Shown piece after piece: positions 39,546 through 53,882 of a DNA stretch of 64,000 nt (position 1 is the first letter of the stretch; each line of letters starts with the position of its first letter). A program made the position numbers and the translations under genes. Under the pieces are notes generated by a model. That model did no database searches and was not told the DNA's origin. It worked only from the letters and a program-made list of their open reading frames with translations. This DNA comes from Methanocella arvoryzae MRE50. GTDB taxonomy: Archaea > Halobacteriota > Methanocellia > Methanocellales > Methanocellaceae. The stretch spans positions 1,178,001 to 1,242,000 of the forward strand of contig NC_009464.1 in assembly GCF_000063445.1 (NCBI RefSeq). Direction: 5' to 3'.

Positions 39546-39664
39546 GTCGGAGTGGCCTAGTCTGGTTAGGGCGTCGGACTCATAGGGTATTGAATACTCG
39601 CCATAACTTGAGACAAGTAGCCTGAGACATCCGAAGGTCGGGGGTTCGGATCCCCCCTCCGACA
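39546..39664 (+). tRNA. tRNA-Met (CAU), with an intron
   Basis: Acceptor stem GTCGGAG pairs with CTCCGAC; D arm GCCTAGTCTGGTTAGGGC; anticodon stem TCGGA/TCCGA; T arm GGGGG TTCGGAT CCCCC; discriminator A at 39664, no encoded CCA. The loop reads CTCATA and then A just before TCCGA, giving anticodon CAT at 39581-39583. A 44-nt intron at about 39585-39628 interrupts after position 37, the usual archaeal site. The short variable loop excludes Leu/Ser. Elongator Met is favoured; a tRNA-Ile with modified CAU is less likely because the acceptor and D arm do not resemble it. Confidence 0.85.
39585..39628 (+). other. tRNA intron in tRNA-Met
   Basis: The 44-nt insert lies between anticodon-loop positions 37 and 38. 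Exact splice points depend on the bulge-helix-bulge fold and could shift by a base or two. Confidence 0.6.
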
Positions 39665-48445: not shown

Positions 48446-49561
48446 ATGCAGAAGAAGGCAGGGAAAAAGGCATCAGTCAAGGGTAAAGCCGCCGTAAGCA
48501 CGCCGTCCGGAAAGACGGCGGCCAAAAAGGCTACCGCCGGGAAGGCTACGGCTAAAAAAGCTTCCGCAGAACACATGACTTACGCCGGCTCAGGCGTTGA
48601 CATCAAGAAGCTGGACGGCATTAAGTCCGATATCCTCAAAAGCCTCAGCTTCAAACGCACCGGCTTCGGCGCCCCCCTCGGCGGAGAGGGGCACTACGCA
48701 GGCTTGATCGATATGGGCTACTTCGCCCTGGCAATCACTACGGATGGCGTGGGCACCAAGCTGCTCATCGCGGACGCCATCGAGAAGTGGGATACCATCG
48801 GCATCGACTGCGTCGCCATGAACGTGAACGACCTGTACGTAATGGGTATCGAGCCCCTTGCCTTCGTCGACTACATATCACTTGAAAAGCCGAACCCGGA
48901 GCTGGTCAGGCAGACGATGATCGGCCTCAACGAGGGCGCCCGCCAGGCCAACGTGTCCATCGTCGGCGGCGAAACCGCGGCTCTGCCCGACATCATCAAA
49001 GGCTTCGACCTCGCCGGCACGGCTGTCGGAGTCGTCCCCAAAGACCGGATCATCACCGGCAAAGACGTAAAGCCCGGCGACGTCATCGTTGGCCTGCCGT
49101 CCAGCGGCATTCACTCCAACGGCTACAGCCTCGTCCGCAAAGTCGTGGAGAGCGCCGGCCTCAAGTACACAGACCCCTGCCCGTACAACAAAAAGGTCTC
49201 CCTGGGAGAGGAACTGCTCACCCCCACCAGAATCTACGCCGAAGTCGTCGGCCTCGCAAAGCGGTTCAACATCCACGGCATGGCCCACATCACCGGCGGC
49301 GGTTTGATGAACCTCAAACGCATTACAAGCTACGGCTTCGACTTCACCGACCCGCTCCCGGTGCCAGAAGTATTCAAGTTCATCCAGAAGACCGGCAATA
49401 TCGAGGACGAGGAGATGTACCGCACCTTCAACATGGGTATGGGCTACGTCATCATCTGCGATAAGCAGGACGCCGGCGCCATCGTGAAAATGACGGATGG
49501 TACCATCGTCGGTAAAATTGTCAAGGAAGGGTGCAGAATTCGCGGCATCAAGATGTGGTAA
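48446..49561 (+). CDS. purM: Phosphoribosylformylglycinamidine cyclo-ligase with Lys/Ala-rich N-terminus
   Basis: 371 residues; makes AIR in purine synthesis. From residue 44 the sequence is classical PurM: MTYAGSGVDIKKLDGIKS, ATP-binding TTDGVGTKLLIADA, NVNDLYVMGIEPLAFVDY split over its loop, GGETAALPDI, GLPSSGIHSNGYSLVRK and HITGGGLMNL. Residues 1-43 are an unusual extension, about 12 Lys and 12 Ala in short AKKA and GKA units, like a histone H1 tail. The TATA box at 48413-48431 fits a start at 48446; no ribosome site precedes the internal ATG at 48575, so the tail is probably translated. Confidence 0.9.
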   Translation: MQKKAGKKASVKGKAAVSTPSGKTAAKKATAGKATAKKASAEHMTYAGSGVDIKKLDGIKSDILKSLSFKRTGFGAPLGGEGHYAGLIDMGYFALAITTDGVGTKLLIADAIEKWDTIGIDCVAMNVNDLYVMGIEPLAFVDYISLEKPNPELVRQTMIGLNEGARQANVSIVGGETAALPDIIKGFDLAGTAVGVVPKDRIITGKDVKPGDVIVGLPSSGIHSNGYSLVRKVVESAGLKYTDPCPYNKKVSLGEELLTPTRIYAEVVGLAKRFNIHGMAHITGGGLMNLKRITSYGFDFTDPLPVPEVFKFIQKTGNIEDEEMYRTFNMGMGYVIICDKQDAGAIVKMTDGTIVGKIVKEGCRIRGIKMW

Positions 49562-49574
49562 CTAGTTTTTCGAT

Positions 49575-49605
49575 GGCTCTTGCATCGCGAGAGCCGATCT
49601 TTTTA
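49575..49605 (+). terminator. Terminator after purM
   Basis: GGCTCT TGCATCGCG AGAGCC followed by GATCTTTTTATT, 14 nt past the stop codon. Confidence 0.55.
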
Positions 49606-49631
49606 TTACAGAGCGCAAAGCACTATGATTA

Positions 49632-50183
49632 ATGTTCTCGCTTCGGAAGCTCGTACATATGGGCGGTGTGCTGTTCGTGCCGCTCGCGATGTACAACCGG
49701 TACCTGGCTCTTGGAATGGCCATACTGGGTATCGGCGCTTTCTTTGTGCTGGAGCTGGTGAAGCGTAAGCTGGACCCGAAGCTGGCGGGGCTGGTATACC
49801 GGAAGGGGGAGATGTCGGGCACGGCGACGGAGCCGCTGGCCTACCTGCTGGCAATCACATTGTTGTTGGCGATCTCTTTGCTGTTCATGCCGGAGGCGTG
49901 CGATGCGGCGATCATCGTTCTGACGCTGGGCGACGGCGTGGCGACCCTCGCGGGCAGGGCGATCGGCGGGCCGAAGCTGCCCTGTACTAAAAAGACCTGG
50001 TCGGGCATGCTTGCGGGAATCATCATTGCAGGCTCGGCGGGGTACTTCGTTGCCGGGCCGATCGCGCTTGTGGGAGCGGCTGGCGGCATGATCGCGGAAG
50101 CGTACGCGGGCAGGGGTGACAACTGCCTCACCGCGATAGCGGCCTTTCTCTGCATGGCCGCCGCTGCCGTTATTACGGGATAG
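49632..50183 (+). CDS. Phytol/dolichol kinase-like membrane protein
   Basis: 183 residues, five or six membrane helices. It belongs to the CTP-dependent lipid-kinase/cytidylyltransferase-like group: the N-terminal LRKLVHMGGVLFVPLA, the D in LTLGDGVATLAGRAIGG and the K in CTKKTWSGMLAG are the hallmarks. Likely substrate is a polyprenol or isoprenoid alcohol, relevant to archaeal lipids or glycosylation carriers; this is an inference. The ATG at 49632 lies 30 nt after a CTTTTTATT element. It is followed by the operon at 50221, which has its own TATA box. Confidence 0.82.
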   Translation: MFSLRKLVHMGGVLFVPLAMYNRYLALGMAILGIGAFFVLELVKRKLDPKLAGLVYRKGEMSGTATEPLAYLLAITLLLAISLLFMPEACDAAIIVLTLGDGVATLAGRAIGGPKLPCTKKTWSGMLAGIIIAGSAGYFVAGPIALVGAAGGMIAEAYAGRGDNCLTAIAAFLCMAAAAVITG

Positions 50184-50220: not shown

Positions 50221-50766
50221 ATGAATAACCGTTCCTTCCTGCTGATCGGTGCCAGCGTGGTGCTCGTCCTGATCAGCCTTCCGATCTGGTTCATCACCCT
50301 CATGGCTTTTATAGCGGGCAGGTCATGGGCGCTGGCCACGGGCTTTCTGGGCGTCGTTCTACTGGTGGCGGCCGCCGTTCCGGTATACATGGTCTACTCC
50401 TCCGCCCAGGAACAGAAGATGAAAGATGCCCGGGAGCATAACATGGAGCGGCAGGTCATGGCCGTCGCCAAAAAGAGGAACGGAGTAGTCCGGGCGGCAG
50501 ACCTGGTGAGCGTCGGTTTCAGGGGAGAAGACGCCGAGGCGATTCTGGATCACATGGCGGGCCAGGGGCTGTGCGACATCAACCTTGACGCCACAAAATA
50601 CTCCGGCGTCAAGACCTATATGTTCCCGCAGGAGGTCAGGATGCGGTGCCAGTATTGCGGCACCCCGGTAGACCTGAATACAGTCAGGTGCCCGAGCTGC
50701 GGTGCTCCTGTGGAGTGGGACAAGGCCAGGCCGGAAGACCTGAAGAGGGAGAGTAACAATGGTTAG
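50221..50766 (+). CDS. Membrane protein with winged-helix-like part and C-terminal zinc ribbon (operon gene 1)
   Basis: 181 residues. Two membrane helices (LLIGASVVLVLISLPIWFITLM and a second from LATGFLGVVLLVAAAVPVYMV) are at the N-terminus. A cytosolic segment, MAVAKKRNGVVRAADLVSVG, has the look of a small helical/winged unit; then RCQYCGTPVDL and RCPSCGAPVEW form a zinc ribbon. The last 8 nt overlap the next gene. It is the first gene of the three-gene operon. Its job may be to tether or present the partner proteins, which is an inference from position. Confidence 0.72.
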   Translation: MNNRSFLLIGASVVLVLISLPIWFITLMAFIAGRSWALATGFLGVVLLVAAAVPVYMVYSSAQEQKMKDAREHNMERQVMAVAKKRNGVVRAADLVSVGFRGEDAEAILDHMAGQGLCDINLDATKYSGVKTYMFPQEVRMRCQYCGTPVDLNTVRCPSCGAPVEWDKARPEDLKRESNNG

Positions 50767-52447
50767 AAACACACGCCTGCCGGCAGTACTGGTATTGTCG
50801 CTGCTCGTGCTGGCCCTGGCTATAGCAGCCTCGCCGGCCGCCAGTGCAGAGGAGTACAGGTGGCAGGTCAACTACCAGCACGTCACGCTGGACATCAACC
50901 AGTCCGGTCAGGTCAGCATGATCTACCAGGTGGACGCCACTATTGAGAAAGGCGTCTGGAACGAGGTCTGGATACCTGCCACTAAAAGTAACATGCAGAT
51001 CAGCAGCGTGGTGGACAGCACAGGCAAAAGCCACAGCTACTACATAGATGGCGGCCAGATCAAGACCCAGGACTACGATTTAAGGCCGGGCGATCACATC
51101 GGCCTCACGATTTATTCGACGCTGCCGAACTTCATCTACAAGTCGAATATTGAGGGGTACGGCATCGTCTCATTCACCCCGCCATGGTGGGACATGACCA
51201 TCAGTGATACGAGTGTGAAGTACGTGCTGCCTGCGGAGATCAACGTCAGCGAAGTTTTTACGGGTAACAGGGAGTACTCCGGCATCGGGACCGAGAACGG
51301 CCGCACCATCGTCTACTTCAACAGCACACATTTATCCAATAACCAGCAGTTCGACACAGCAGTCAGCTTCCCGGAGAGGTACCTGGCCCCGGGAGCCGTG
51401 ACCTCCAAGGACGATTACACGCCCCCAGTCTACACTACGGGCGATGACGACGGCGTCGGCGCCTTCTTCACGGACGTCTGCTGCTCTTCAGGCTGTTTAC
51501 CCTTCATCGGCATCGGCCTGATCATCATTTTCAGCATCATCGCCTCAGGCAACCGCAAGCAATATTCTCCCCCGGTCGTCAGCATGGACGGGGTGGGCGT
51601 CAACAAGGACCTCGACCCGGTCGAGGCTGCGATGCTCCTGCGCATCGACCCGAGGCGCATCCTGACCATGATCATGTTCGACCTGATGAAAAAAGGCAAC
51701 ATCAAGCTCATTTCTACTGAGCCGATCAGGCTGGAGCCGGTCTCCCGCAAAGATCTGAACTACTACGAGGCAGCCTTCATGGACGCCATCATAAAGGATG
51801 CGCTGGACGAAGACCGGCTGGTCAGGTGCTTCAAACTTCTGGCACAGAGAGTGGTCGACAAGACCAGGCCGTTCTGCCGCAAGGACACGGAAGCCTACTA
51901 CAGGCAGAAGATCGAGGAGAAGTGGGACGACGTCAAGGCAGTGGACACGCCGGAGCTGAAACTGCAGAAGTACGACACGGCCATGCTCTGGCTCATGGCG
52001 GACGAGCAGTTCGCCACGAAGACGAAGGACTACCTCAGGGCTCCCGGATGGAACACGATGACCATTCCGGCGTACTACTGGTGGTATCCCTACTACTTCG
52101 GGCACCAGCAGACCGCTACGACTCCGACGACTTCCGCCACTACGGATGCCATGAGACCGCAGACTGGCACGACTGTCAGCCAGCCGCAGCAGCCGACCAA
52201 TCAGACCACTTCGAGCGTGGAGGCGTTTGCGAACAAGGTGAGCAACTCGGTCGAGACCATGTCCGCGGGCGTCGTAGGGAGCATAGAATCGTTCCTGGGA
52301 GTCCGCAACGCTGCGAATGCGCCGCCGGCTCAGCCTGCACCGGCCCGGCAGGGCGGGACGTCGTGCGCCTGCGTCTCGTGCGCCTGCGCCTGCGCTCATT
52401 GTGCCTGCGCCTGTGCCTGCGCGGGCGGAGGAGGGGGATGCACATGA
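50759..52447 (+). CDS. DUF2207-type membrane protein with a Cys-Ala repeat tail (candidate rSAM substrate)
   Basis: 562 residues. A signal peptide (VLSLLVLALAIAASPAASA) is followed by an extracellular DUF2207-like domain (residues 35-225: TLDINQSGQVSMIYQVDATI). A TM helix near 235-258 (LPFIGIGLIIIFSIIASG) follows a VCCSSGC stretch. The cytosolic part (275-430) is helical with DPRRILTMIMFDLMKKGNIKL, then a Tyr/Trp-rich YYWWYPYYF and a Thr/Gln-rich linker. The final 28 residues contain ten Cys spaced mainly as C-A-C, a Gly5 run and terminal CT. The next gene overlaps by 4 nt. Confidence 0.83.
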   Translation: MVRNTRLPAVLVLSLLVLALAIAASPAASAEEYRWQVNYQHVTLDINQSGQVSMIYQVDATIEKGVWNEVWIPATKSNMQISSVVDSTGKSHSYYIDGGQIKTQDYDLRPGDHIGLTIYSTLPNFIYKSNIEGYGIVSFTPPWWDMTISDTSVKYVLPAEINVSEVFTGNREYSGIGTENGRTIVYFNSTHLSNNQQFDTAVSFPERYLAPGAVTSKDDYTPPVYTTGDDDGVGAFFTDVCCSSGCLPFIGIGLIIIFSIIASGNRKQYSPPVVSMDGVGVNKDLDPVEAAMLLRIDPRRILTMIMFDLMKKGNIKLISTEPIRLEPVSRKDLNYYEAAFMDAIIKDALDEDRLVRCFKLLAQRVVDKTRPFCRKDTEAYYRQKIEEKWDDVKAVDTPELKLQKYDTAMLWLMADEQFATKTKDYLRAPGWNTMTIPAYYWWYPYYFGHQQTATTPTTSATTDAMRPQTGTTVSQPQQPTNQTTSSVEAFANKVSNSVETMSAGVVGSIESFLGVRNAANAPPAQPAPARQGGTSCACVSCACACAHCACACACAGGGGGCT

Positions 52448-53712
52448 AGACCGCAAAGATCAACAACGCCAAACTGCACTTGAGAGAGGAGAGCGACGGC
52501 TCGGGGCTTTTAGTCATAAACGCCTCGCGCATACTCTACCTGGACCGTATCGGCTCCGACTACGTCAAATACTACATCCACTACAACAGCCACAAGCCCC
52601 TCGTAGGGAGCATCCGGGACAACGTCGTCCTTAGAGTGATGATGAAGTACAAGGTCGGCAAGAAGACGGCCGAACAGGACTACGATCGGCTCATGAACTC
52701 CGTCTGGGGCGTCGCCTCGGGCAACACCTGCCCCTTCTCCAGCCTTGACGTCAAAGTGAGAACGCCGGAGTACGGCGACCTGAAATCACCGCTACGCATC
52801 GACCTCGCCTTAACGTACAGGTGCAACAACAACTGCGGCCACTGCTACGCGGGCGGGCCCAGGCAGACAAAAGAGCTCTCCACGAAGGAGTGGAAGCAGA
52901 TCATCGACAAGGCGCAGAAGTTCGAGGTCCCAAACATCGTCTTCACTGGCGGCGAATCCCTGCTTCGCGAAGATCTAGAAGAGTTGATAGCCCAGGCCGA
53001 GAAGCTGGGTATTGTCACCGGCCTGATCACTAACGGTAGGCTGCTCACCAAAGAGCGGGTAGCGAAGCTGAAGAAGGCGGGGCTGGACTACACCCAGATC
53101 ACCATAGAGTCCCCGGACAGGACGATCCACAACGCCATGTGCAAAGTGGACTGCTACGACGAGACGGTGGCGGGAATCAAGAACTCAGTACAGGAACTGT
53201 TCACCACCACCAATACGACGATTACCCGGGCCAACAAGGCGACCATACTCGATCTGGTGCCTTTCCTCTCTAAGCTGGGAGTAAAGCGCTTCGGCCTGAA
53301 CGCCATTATCAGGGCCGGAAGAGGTGTGAATGCGGACGGCGTCACCTACGAGGAGCTGAAAGAGCTGCTGCCGCAGGTGATCACCCTCGCCGAACAGCAC
53401 AACATGGACTTCATCTGGTACACCCCCACCCCGTACCACAAGCTCAACCCGGTAGAGATGGGCCTCGGCGTCAAATCCTGCAGCGCCGCCAGACTGACGC
53501 TCGCAGTCGAGCCCGACGGCAGCATCATACCCTGCCAGTCCTACTTTAAGCCGTTAGGTAATGCGGTGACAGACGAATTCAAGGACGTCTGGCAAAAAGA
53601 ATTAGCCCTGTGCCTCAGGGGACACAAGTACGCCCCCGAGAAGTGCAAGAAGTGCATCCAGTACCCCATGTGCGGCGGCGGGTGTCCGCTCGAACTCGCC
53701 TGCGGGTTCTGA
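52444..53712 (+). CDS. Radical SAM/SPASM enzyme with PqqD-like N-terminus
   Basis: 422 residues. Residues 1-110 resemble a PqqD/RRE precursor-binding domain: LLVINASRILYLDRIGSDYV, then KKTAEQDYDRLMNSVWG. The radical SAM core follows: TYRCNNNCGHCYAGG (CxxxCxxC), IVFTGGESLLRE for SAM binding. The C-terminal SPASM region has SCSAARLTLAVEPDGSIIPC and a CLRGHKYAPEKCKKC and YPMCGGGCPLELAC set, enough for two auxiliary clusters. Start ATG at 52444 overlaps the stop of the DUF2207 gene (ATGA); GGAGGAGGGGG just upstream serves as ribosome site. Precursor-modifying role is inferred from the domain set and neighbour. Confidence 0.85.
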   Translation: MKTAKINNAKLHLREESDGSGLLVINASRILYLDRIGSDYVKYYIHYNSHKPLVGSIRDNVVLRVMMKYKVGKKTAEQDYDRLMNSVWGVASGNTCPFSSLDVKVRTPEYGDLKSPLRIDLALTYRCNNNCGHCYAGGPRQTKELSTKEWKQIIDKAQKFEVPNIVFTGGESLLREDLEELIAQAEKLGIVTGLITNGRLLTKERVAKLKKAGLDYTQITIESPDRTIHNAMCKVDCYDETVAGIKNSVQELFTTTNTTITRANKATILDLVPFLSKLGVKRFGLNAIIRAGRGVNADGVTYEELKELLPQVITLAEQHNMDFIWYTPTPYHKLNPVEMGLGVKSCSAARLTLAVEPDGSIIPCQSYFKPLGNAVTDEFKDVWQKELALCLRGHKYAPEKCKKCIQYPMCGGGCPLELACGF

Positions 53713-53730
53713 GCAAGAACTACAGTGAAG

Positions 53731-53882
53731 GGTTCACCACAGAGGCACAGAGAGACACAGAGGTTCACAGAGAACGGCTCACCACAGAGACACAGAGAAA
53801 CACAGAGAATTATATTTAGATAACCGGATAGCTACGACTTAGGAGATAAGTCTCTGTGAACCTCTGTGCCTCTGTGGTGAAT
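53731..53882. repeat. CACAGAGA-unit palindrome (class B), copy 2
   Basis: Left arm TTCACCACAGAGGCACAGAG plus AGACACAGAGGTTCACAGAG (53732 onward), partly duplicated to 53809; right arm TCTCTGTGAACCTCTGTGCC plus TCTGTGGTGAA (53851-53881). It fills the space between the radical SAM stop and the 3' end of the Fe-S protein gene on the other strand. Confidence 0.7.

Follow-up and report, generated by a model that had tools for sequence, protein, structure and literature searches.

A cysteine-alanine tail on a membrane protein as the probable substrate of a partner radical SAM/SPASM enzyme in Methanocella arvoryzae and other archaea and bacteria

The 64,000-nucleotide stretch of the Methanocella arvoryzae MRE50 genome considered here (contig NC_009464.1, positions 1,178,001 to 1,242,000; referred to as the window) carries three + strand genes at 50221-50766, 50759-52447 and 52444-53712, with successive overlaps of 8 nt and 4 nt, in agreement with the three-gene operon described in the first-pass annotation of this DNA. 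The second gene encodes a membrane protein (P0002, 562 residues) ending in a Cys-Ala tail, and the third (P0003, 422 residues) a radical S-adenosylmethionine (SAM) enzyme with a SPASM domain and an N-terminal, PqqD-like recognition element (RRE) of the kind associated with ribosomally synthesized and post-translationally modified peptides (RiPPs). These two proteins are likely to form a substrate-enzyme pair, in which the tail would be modified in the cytosol under the guidance of the RRE, and sequence comparison indicates that the Cys-Ala tail is very probably an ancient modification substrate. RiPP maturation is usually pictured as acting on short soluble precursors, which are cut and exported; the apparent substrate here is the C-terminus of a membrane protein of 500-700 residues.

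Co-occurrence of the tail and the enzyme

The pattern C-A-C-x-x-C-A-C-A-C was sought in one genome per species (84,980 species) and was found at no fewer than 80 loci. Among the matches listed, to which the following counts of tails refer, 58 are true C-terminal tails, 56 of them on homologues of the window protein, from Chloroflexota, Bathyarchaeia, Asgard archaea, Acidobacteriota and other lineages. At tails with sufficient flanking DNA (>1.4 kb downstream and >3.5 kb upstream), a homologous radical-SAM gene was present in 21 of 22 cases; none was present at 22 chance matches to the pattern. Whole genomes were followed up for 10 of the 11 tails with no enzyme gene in the flanking DNA, and for nine others, and the enzyme was present in all 19 (E about 1e-112 or better). 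In 121 Anaerolineae genomes, searched with the protein body without its tail, the substrate was found in 30 and the enzyme in 32, all 30 being shared, and in 121 Bathyarchaeia genomes the substrate was found in 36 and the enzyme in 32, all 32 being shared; in the four genomes with the substrate only, it is a fragment. Pooling of these 242 genomes gives 62 with both genes, two with the enzyme only, four with the substrate only and 174 with neither (Fisher p about 4e-50, relatedness ignored). The co-occurrence check suggested in the first-pass annotation therefore reveals a near-total linkage of the pair across the sampled bacteria and archaea. Loss of the Cys-rich tail from an otherwise intact operon, which would have spoken against the pairing, was looked for in the same two sets of 121 genomes: every complete locus ends in a Cys tail, and only L208 and L314 depart from this, each being truncated or frameshifted where its contig stops. 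The proposal that the cytosolic tail is the substrate of the enzyme is strongly supported by this co-occurrence, from which modification of the tail may itself be inferred. A search with the enzyme revealed no relatives in viral_contigs, and none in plasmids.

Conservation of the tail

Three forms of the tail recur: GGCACACACAGCACACAGGGR, followed by the stop, in Chloroflexota, Zixibacteria, Acidobacteriota, Aminicenantes and Asgard archaea; SCVCACAACACACACVSCACACAGGGVG, also followed by the stop, in Bathyarchaeia and Thermoproteota; and SCACACVSCACACACAGGGGAGCSRK, on shorter proteins, in Krumholzibacteriia and Bacillota. When 33 proteins are compared, the commonest residue accounts for 92% of the tail core positions, versus 43-51% in the two folded domains, and across phyla the identity of the protein body drops to 22-30% while the tail is near-invariant.

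The same gene pair is present in all four sampled Methanocellaceae (enzyme identity 67-75%), in which the tail SCACVSCACACVSCACACACAGGGGGCT is 93% invariant and the adjoining linkers are 33-36% invariant. Between the three relatives compared, the tail codons differ at 13-15 of 28 positions, all synonymously, with no non-synonymous change; between the window and its relatives, 9-14 changes are synonymous and two are non-synonymous. Because codon changes are almost only synonymous, selection acts on the tail peptide. Within the window, the tail pattern matches twice, versus no match expected in shuffles. A run of five Gly residues in the tail partly overlaps the ribosome-binding site of the third gene (GGAGGAGG, about 52427-52434, containing GGAGG), and its residues are kept between relatives though the Gly codons differ; the ribosome-binding site was therefore accepted only in part as an explanation of the Gly run. 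The 390 other Halobacteriota genomes of the 394 sampled yielded no intact substrate relative and no enzyme N-terminal domain, and a weak Halobacteriota match to the tail region, at L032, contains stop codons and was set aside.

Change of tail type with enzyme clade

Sixteen Anaerolineae genomes (L199-L214) encode more distant homologues of the membrane protein, in which the Cys-Ala tail is replaced by one of the (CHSACV)n type, except in L208, truncated by the end of its contig. These tails, such as that of L207, can be written (CHSACV/HDA)n and contain 11-13 Cys and many His residues. An enzyme homologue lies directly downstream wherever the flanking DNA was covered, and the enzymes partnering CHSACV tails form one clade. 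In the enzyme tree, which was built quickly and has some long branches, all tail classes are explained by the minimum possible number of changes (seven), and the tail-associated enzymes are split from generic archaeal radical-SAM proteins with 99% support in the Shimodaira-Hasegawa-like approximate likelihood ratio test. Tail type and enzyme clade thus change together, as would be expected of a substrate and its enzyme, and activity of the enzyme elsewhere is hard to reconcile with this pattern. The likeness of the CHSACH units in such tails to CxxxCH may hint that they bind haem or a metal.

Canonical DUF2207 proteins with poly-Gly tails, encoded in the same genomes and sharing the overall layout of the tail-bearing proteins, have no Cys in the tail and no radical-SAM neighbour. 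Two of them (L246:11030-12940 and L244:12576-14462) lie near a CHSAC operon on the opposite strand, the former adjoined by a thioesterase gene. Such a protein, a paralogue that naturally lacks the Cys tail, would make a useful control.

The RRE-radical SAM-SPASM enzyme

P0003 matches the Pfam models Radical_SAM (PF04055, 93.7 bits) and SPASM (PF13186, 35.9 bits) well above their cut-offs. The CxxxCxxC cluster motif and the Cys-rich SPASM end read from the sequence in the first-pass annotation are both present: the motif lies at C127/C131/C134 (residues 127-134; 52822-52845, + strand), and the SPASM domain (residues 346-420; 53479-53703, + strand) has the spacings C346-x12-G-x4-C364 and C401-x2-C404-x5-C410-x3-C414, with cysteines for auxiliary Fe-S clusters. 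The radical SAM core and the SPASM domain are each found in 31 of 31 homologues. The N-terminal region (residues 1-92; 52444-52719, + strand) is assigned to the RRE on the basis of AlphaFold, Pfam matches in homologues and hhalign. The AlphaFold model, built from a 31-sequence alignment (mean predicted local distance difference test score, pLDDT, 93), has four strands and three helices, modelled with high confidence, at the N-terminus, followed by a barrel and the SPASM domain, and the top Foldseek structures are SkfB, SuiB (with and without peptide) and CteB, SkfB also being the best PDB match by sequence. Pfam PqqD matches 19 of the 31 homologues, and the N-terminus of the window enzyme aligns with PqqD-positive relatives in hhalign at 98.4%. 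The PqqD-like fold postulated for this region is therefore borne out by modelling, and a non-PqqD fold, which would have counted against the proposal, was not seen.

None of the NCBIfam radical-SAM models is reached by the enzyme: scores are 119 bits for the PqqE model (cut-off 381), 79.6 for the sactipeptide maturase model SkfB (TIGR04403, cut-off 300), 70.3 for StsB (NF045574, cut-off 625) and 70.9 for rSAM_ACGX (TIGR04340, cut-off 400). Type-B enzymes (L093:2807-4429 and L077:2128-3744) themselves contain a stretch of Cys, Gly and Ser close to the C-terminus (GGGCSGCSGSCGTGG). The enzyme reading frame is open upstream of its start in the window (51826-52443), across the Cys-Ala repeats, and in two relatives (L003 and L004) this upstream part even contains an ATG; spurious Arg-rich N-terminal extensions can result, and this is a trap for annotation.

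Anatomy of the membrane protein

P0002 is predicted by AlphaFold (mean pLDDT 75.7) to consist of a signal helix, a beta-rich domain, a hydrophobic helix, a helical domain, a disordered linker, two short helices and the tail, all encoded on the + strand. The signal peptide (residues 1-30; 50759-50848) contains a hydrophobic helix at 7-24. It is followed by the extracellular beta-rich domain (residues 31-240; 50849-51478), modelled mostly with high pLDDT, for which Foldseek gives general beta-domain matches only (ribophorin I/M1 aminopeptidases), pointing to no function. AlphaFold and hydropathy place a single transmembrane helix at about residues 241-266 (51479-51556), and the cytosolic helical domain (about residues 280-440; 51596-52078) is the region matching TIGR04222 and DUF2207_C. 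Within these limits, the beta-rich fold itself covers about residues 31-205, the hydrophobic helix 247-264 and the helical cytosolic fold about 287-425. The tail, SCACVSCACACAHCACACACAGGGGGCT (residues 535-562; 52361-52444), is the candidate core on the grounds of its conservation, and contains ten Cys, Gly5 and a final Cys-Thr. The signal peptide, extracellular domain, transmembrane helix, cytosolic domain and tail had all been read from the letters alone, and each was found again. The description of the protein as DUF2207-like stands as a likeness and fails as model membership: P0002 scores 16.9 bits against PF20990 (DUF2207_C), for which the gathering score is 33, and a homologous CHSAC-tailed protein reaches 31.0 bits against PF09972 (gathering score 24.4). 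The cytosolic domain of P0002 is related, as judged by sequence, to TIGR04222, the curated cut-off of which (43 bits) is reached neither by the window protein (18.8) nor by the protein of L244 (38.3).

Most homologues have more Lys/Arg after the hydrophobic helix than before it, according to a hydropathy heuristic that probably takes buried helices for membrane helices as well. Because this excess follows the single hydrophobic helix, the tail should face the cytosol, alongside the enzyme. Upstream of the tail, an amphipathic segment (residues 483-520; 52205-52318, with helices at 487-505 and 509-520) is 53% invariant in Methanocellaceae and sits between poorly conserved linkers; because it is better conserved than its flanks, this segment is a natural candidate for RRE docking, in the manner of a leader.

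Accessory genes and genomic surroundings

The first gene of the operon (50221-50766, + strand) encodes a small membrane protein, likely accessory, with two hydrophobic segments, a middle alpha/beta domain and a C-terminal CxxC-CxxC zinc ribbon (Pfam Zn_Ribbon_1, 25.3 bits, cut-off 25). A small zinc-ribbon gene lies directly upstream of the pair at 17 of 24 distant loci, in a position corresponding to that of the window gene, the two being equated by position, with a likeness established for the ribbon. The suggestion that this protein is a partner of the pair gains support from these loci outside Methanocella and loses some within the family, in which the ribbon is absent from two of four Methanocellaceae (G002 and G003). 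Many Chloroflexota operons add a second gene, encoding a PqqD domain and a radical-SAM-like domain without CxxxCxxC, and many also include a class I methyltransferase. The product of the PqqD plus degenerate radical-SAM-like gene (L056:4275-5447, L247:10702-11844 and L248:170-1300) may be a partner or serve in recognition as a subunit. Beside the loci inspected, no peptidase, exporter or immunity gene emerged as a conserved neighbour, and the Pfam-scanned neighbours included no multinuclear non-haem iron-dependent oxidase (MNIO, DUF692), the adjacent enzyme being the radical SAM protein.

Ahead of the operon, at 48446-50183, are purM and the gene for a small multi-spanning membrane protein (dolichol-kinase-like by eye); purM is also upstream of the operon in all three relatives. 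Between the enzyme gene and the next gene, which is in the opposite orientation, the interval 53722-53881 contains the repeat CACAGAGGCACAGAGAGACACAGAG, as two direct 41-nt copies and facing inverted copies. Elsewhere in the window, a 119-base Rfam tRNA match at 39546-39664, missed by ARAGORN in bacterial mode, is probably an intron-containing tRNA.

Proposed mechanism and alternative explanations

On the basis of the architecture, conservation, linkage and predicted fold established here, the substrate would be a membrane protein in which a short amphipathic recognition segment leads into a C-terminal Cys-Ala core. The N-terminal RRE of the enzyme probably docks on the recognition segment, and the radical cluster, together with the auxiliary Fe-S clusters, would oxidatively modify the tail in the cytosol. 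Linkage and co-variation make it highly probable that the tail is modified. The likeliest outcome of such a reaction would be several thioether links that join Cys to small residues nearby (Ala), although thioether chemistry is proposed only tentatively, by analogy with the nearest characterised enzymes and from the Cys content of the tail. Since no conserved peptidase gene lies nearby, the modified tail probably stays on the membrane protein. It probably has a conserved housekeeping role (a metal site, or a redox or thiol function) and would not be a secreted antibiotic. Several points weigh against this scheme. Its transmembrane topology comes from a hydropathy heuristic and one AlphaFold model, and Pfam itself does not recognise the RRE in the window enzyme; we infer the chemistry, product and function of the tail from sequence, and Cys-x-Cys tails could simply bind metal unmodified.

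This last point, taken further, would make the tail a metallothionein-like structure that binds metals or thiols unmodified, with the enzyme acting elsewhere in the protein or on another substrate of the pathway. The CxC spacing and the Cys/His repeats of the CHSAC clade would suit metal ligands, and a zinc-ribbon membrane protein often neighbours the pair. However, enzyme clade and tail type change together, the enzyme has an RRE, which is a peptide-binding domain, no part of the partner protein is better conserved than the tail, and a strict Ala between Cys residues is not needed for metal binding; this explanation is thus rather improbable. About as improbable is cleavage of the modified tail to give a free small-molecule or peptide cofactor, as for pyrroloquinoline quinone (PQQ) or mycofactocin. 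The architecture and scores of the enzyme come close to those of PqqE (119-134 bits), the tail sequence is near-constant across domains and some operons include a methyltransferase gene, but the PqqE model score is far below its cut-off, no conserved peptidase was seen beside the genes, and the known precursors of this kind are short soluble peptides rather than membrane proteins of 500-700 residues.

A secreted or surface antimicrobial resembling a sactipeptide, its leader fused to a membrane protein, is very unlikely, even though the closest solved structure is that of SkfB, a sactisynthase: the core scarcely varies between archaea and bacteria, no conserved exporter or immunity genes were seen nearby and the tail is predicted to be cytosolic. 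The near-constancy of the tail across domains favours a conserved function over a diversifying toxin. GCC-TGC repetition and Gly5 codons that include GGAGG could suggest an artefact, with the tail arising from a simple DNA repeat or from the ribosome-binding site that serves the enzyme gene. This is scarcely credible, because the residues are kept through synonymous codon differences and the tail is always found at or near the C-terminus of homologues, even where the enzyme gene is upstream or elsewhere in the genome; the DNA-repeat explanation is refuted by synonymous change and by tail-enzyme linkage.

Relation to known systems and implications

The closest parallel comes from a survey of MNIOs (PMC12452194), in which a subset of TIGR04222 membrane proteins was proposed to be MNIO substrates via their Cys-rich C-terminal tails. 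Both systems have a membrane protein with a related cytosolic domain and a low-complexity, Cys-rich C-terminal tail, and a linked peptide-modifying enzyme. They differ in that enzyme, an MNIO (DUF692) there and a radical SAM/SPASM protein with its own RRE here, in the tail, composed of Ser/Gly/Cys there and of ordered Cys-Ala repeats here, and in its predicted location, periplasmic there and cytosolic here. Moreover, one third of TIGR04222 genomes lack an MNIO, whereas co-occurrence is near total here. The Cys-Ala pair looks like a radical-SAM counterpart of the TIGR04222-MNIO system with a much tighter enzyme-substrate association.

The sactipeptide and ranthipeptide maturases SkfB, AlbA and CteB share the RRE-radical SAM-SPASM architecture and a Cys-containing substrate, but the candidate substrate here forms the end of a large membrane protein and hardly changes from one domain of life to another. 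PqqE/PqqD and the mycofactocin maturases also combine a PqqD-type domain with radical SAM/SPASM, and a conserved product is expected, as here; unlike in those systems, no peptidase or later cofactor enzymes were seen near the pair. The radical SAM/SPASM family rSAM_ACGX (TIGR04340) has, judging from its name, an Ala-Cys-Gly repeat target, and TvgA, with Asp-Cys repeats (PMC9062424), has a short repeated core motif beside a radical-SAM gene, although the substrates there are described as peptides rather than membrane-protein tails. No description of the radical-SAM/DUF2207 pair was found in the open-licence literature, including papers on RREs, radical-SAM mining and DUF2207, an unseen description being possible, and no NCBIfam model describing it was found. 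A paper on ovothiol that mentions a DUF2207 neighbour concluded that there was no link.

Since the tail is nearly letter-for-letter the same in archaea and bacteria, a variable toxin is improbable as its product, which is probably a conserved functional group. It is conceivable, if doubtful, that radical-SAM-modified Cys-Ala tails are an ancient, widespread, membrane-anchored and cofactor-like metal or redox site of bacteria and archaea, including Asgard archaea, and that one Chloroflexota clade has a CHSACV version of them with a chemistry of its own. With its short operon, cultured hosts (Methanocella, Ornatilinea and Leptolinea) and repeated core, the system lends itself directly to tests of its chemistry. 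Together with the TIGR04222-MNIO proposal, the Cys-Ala pair suggests that one membrane-protein scaffold has been paired repeatedly with unrelated peptide-modifying enzymes.

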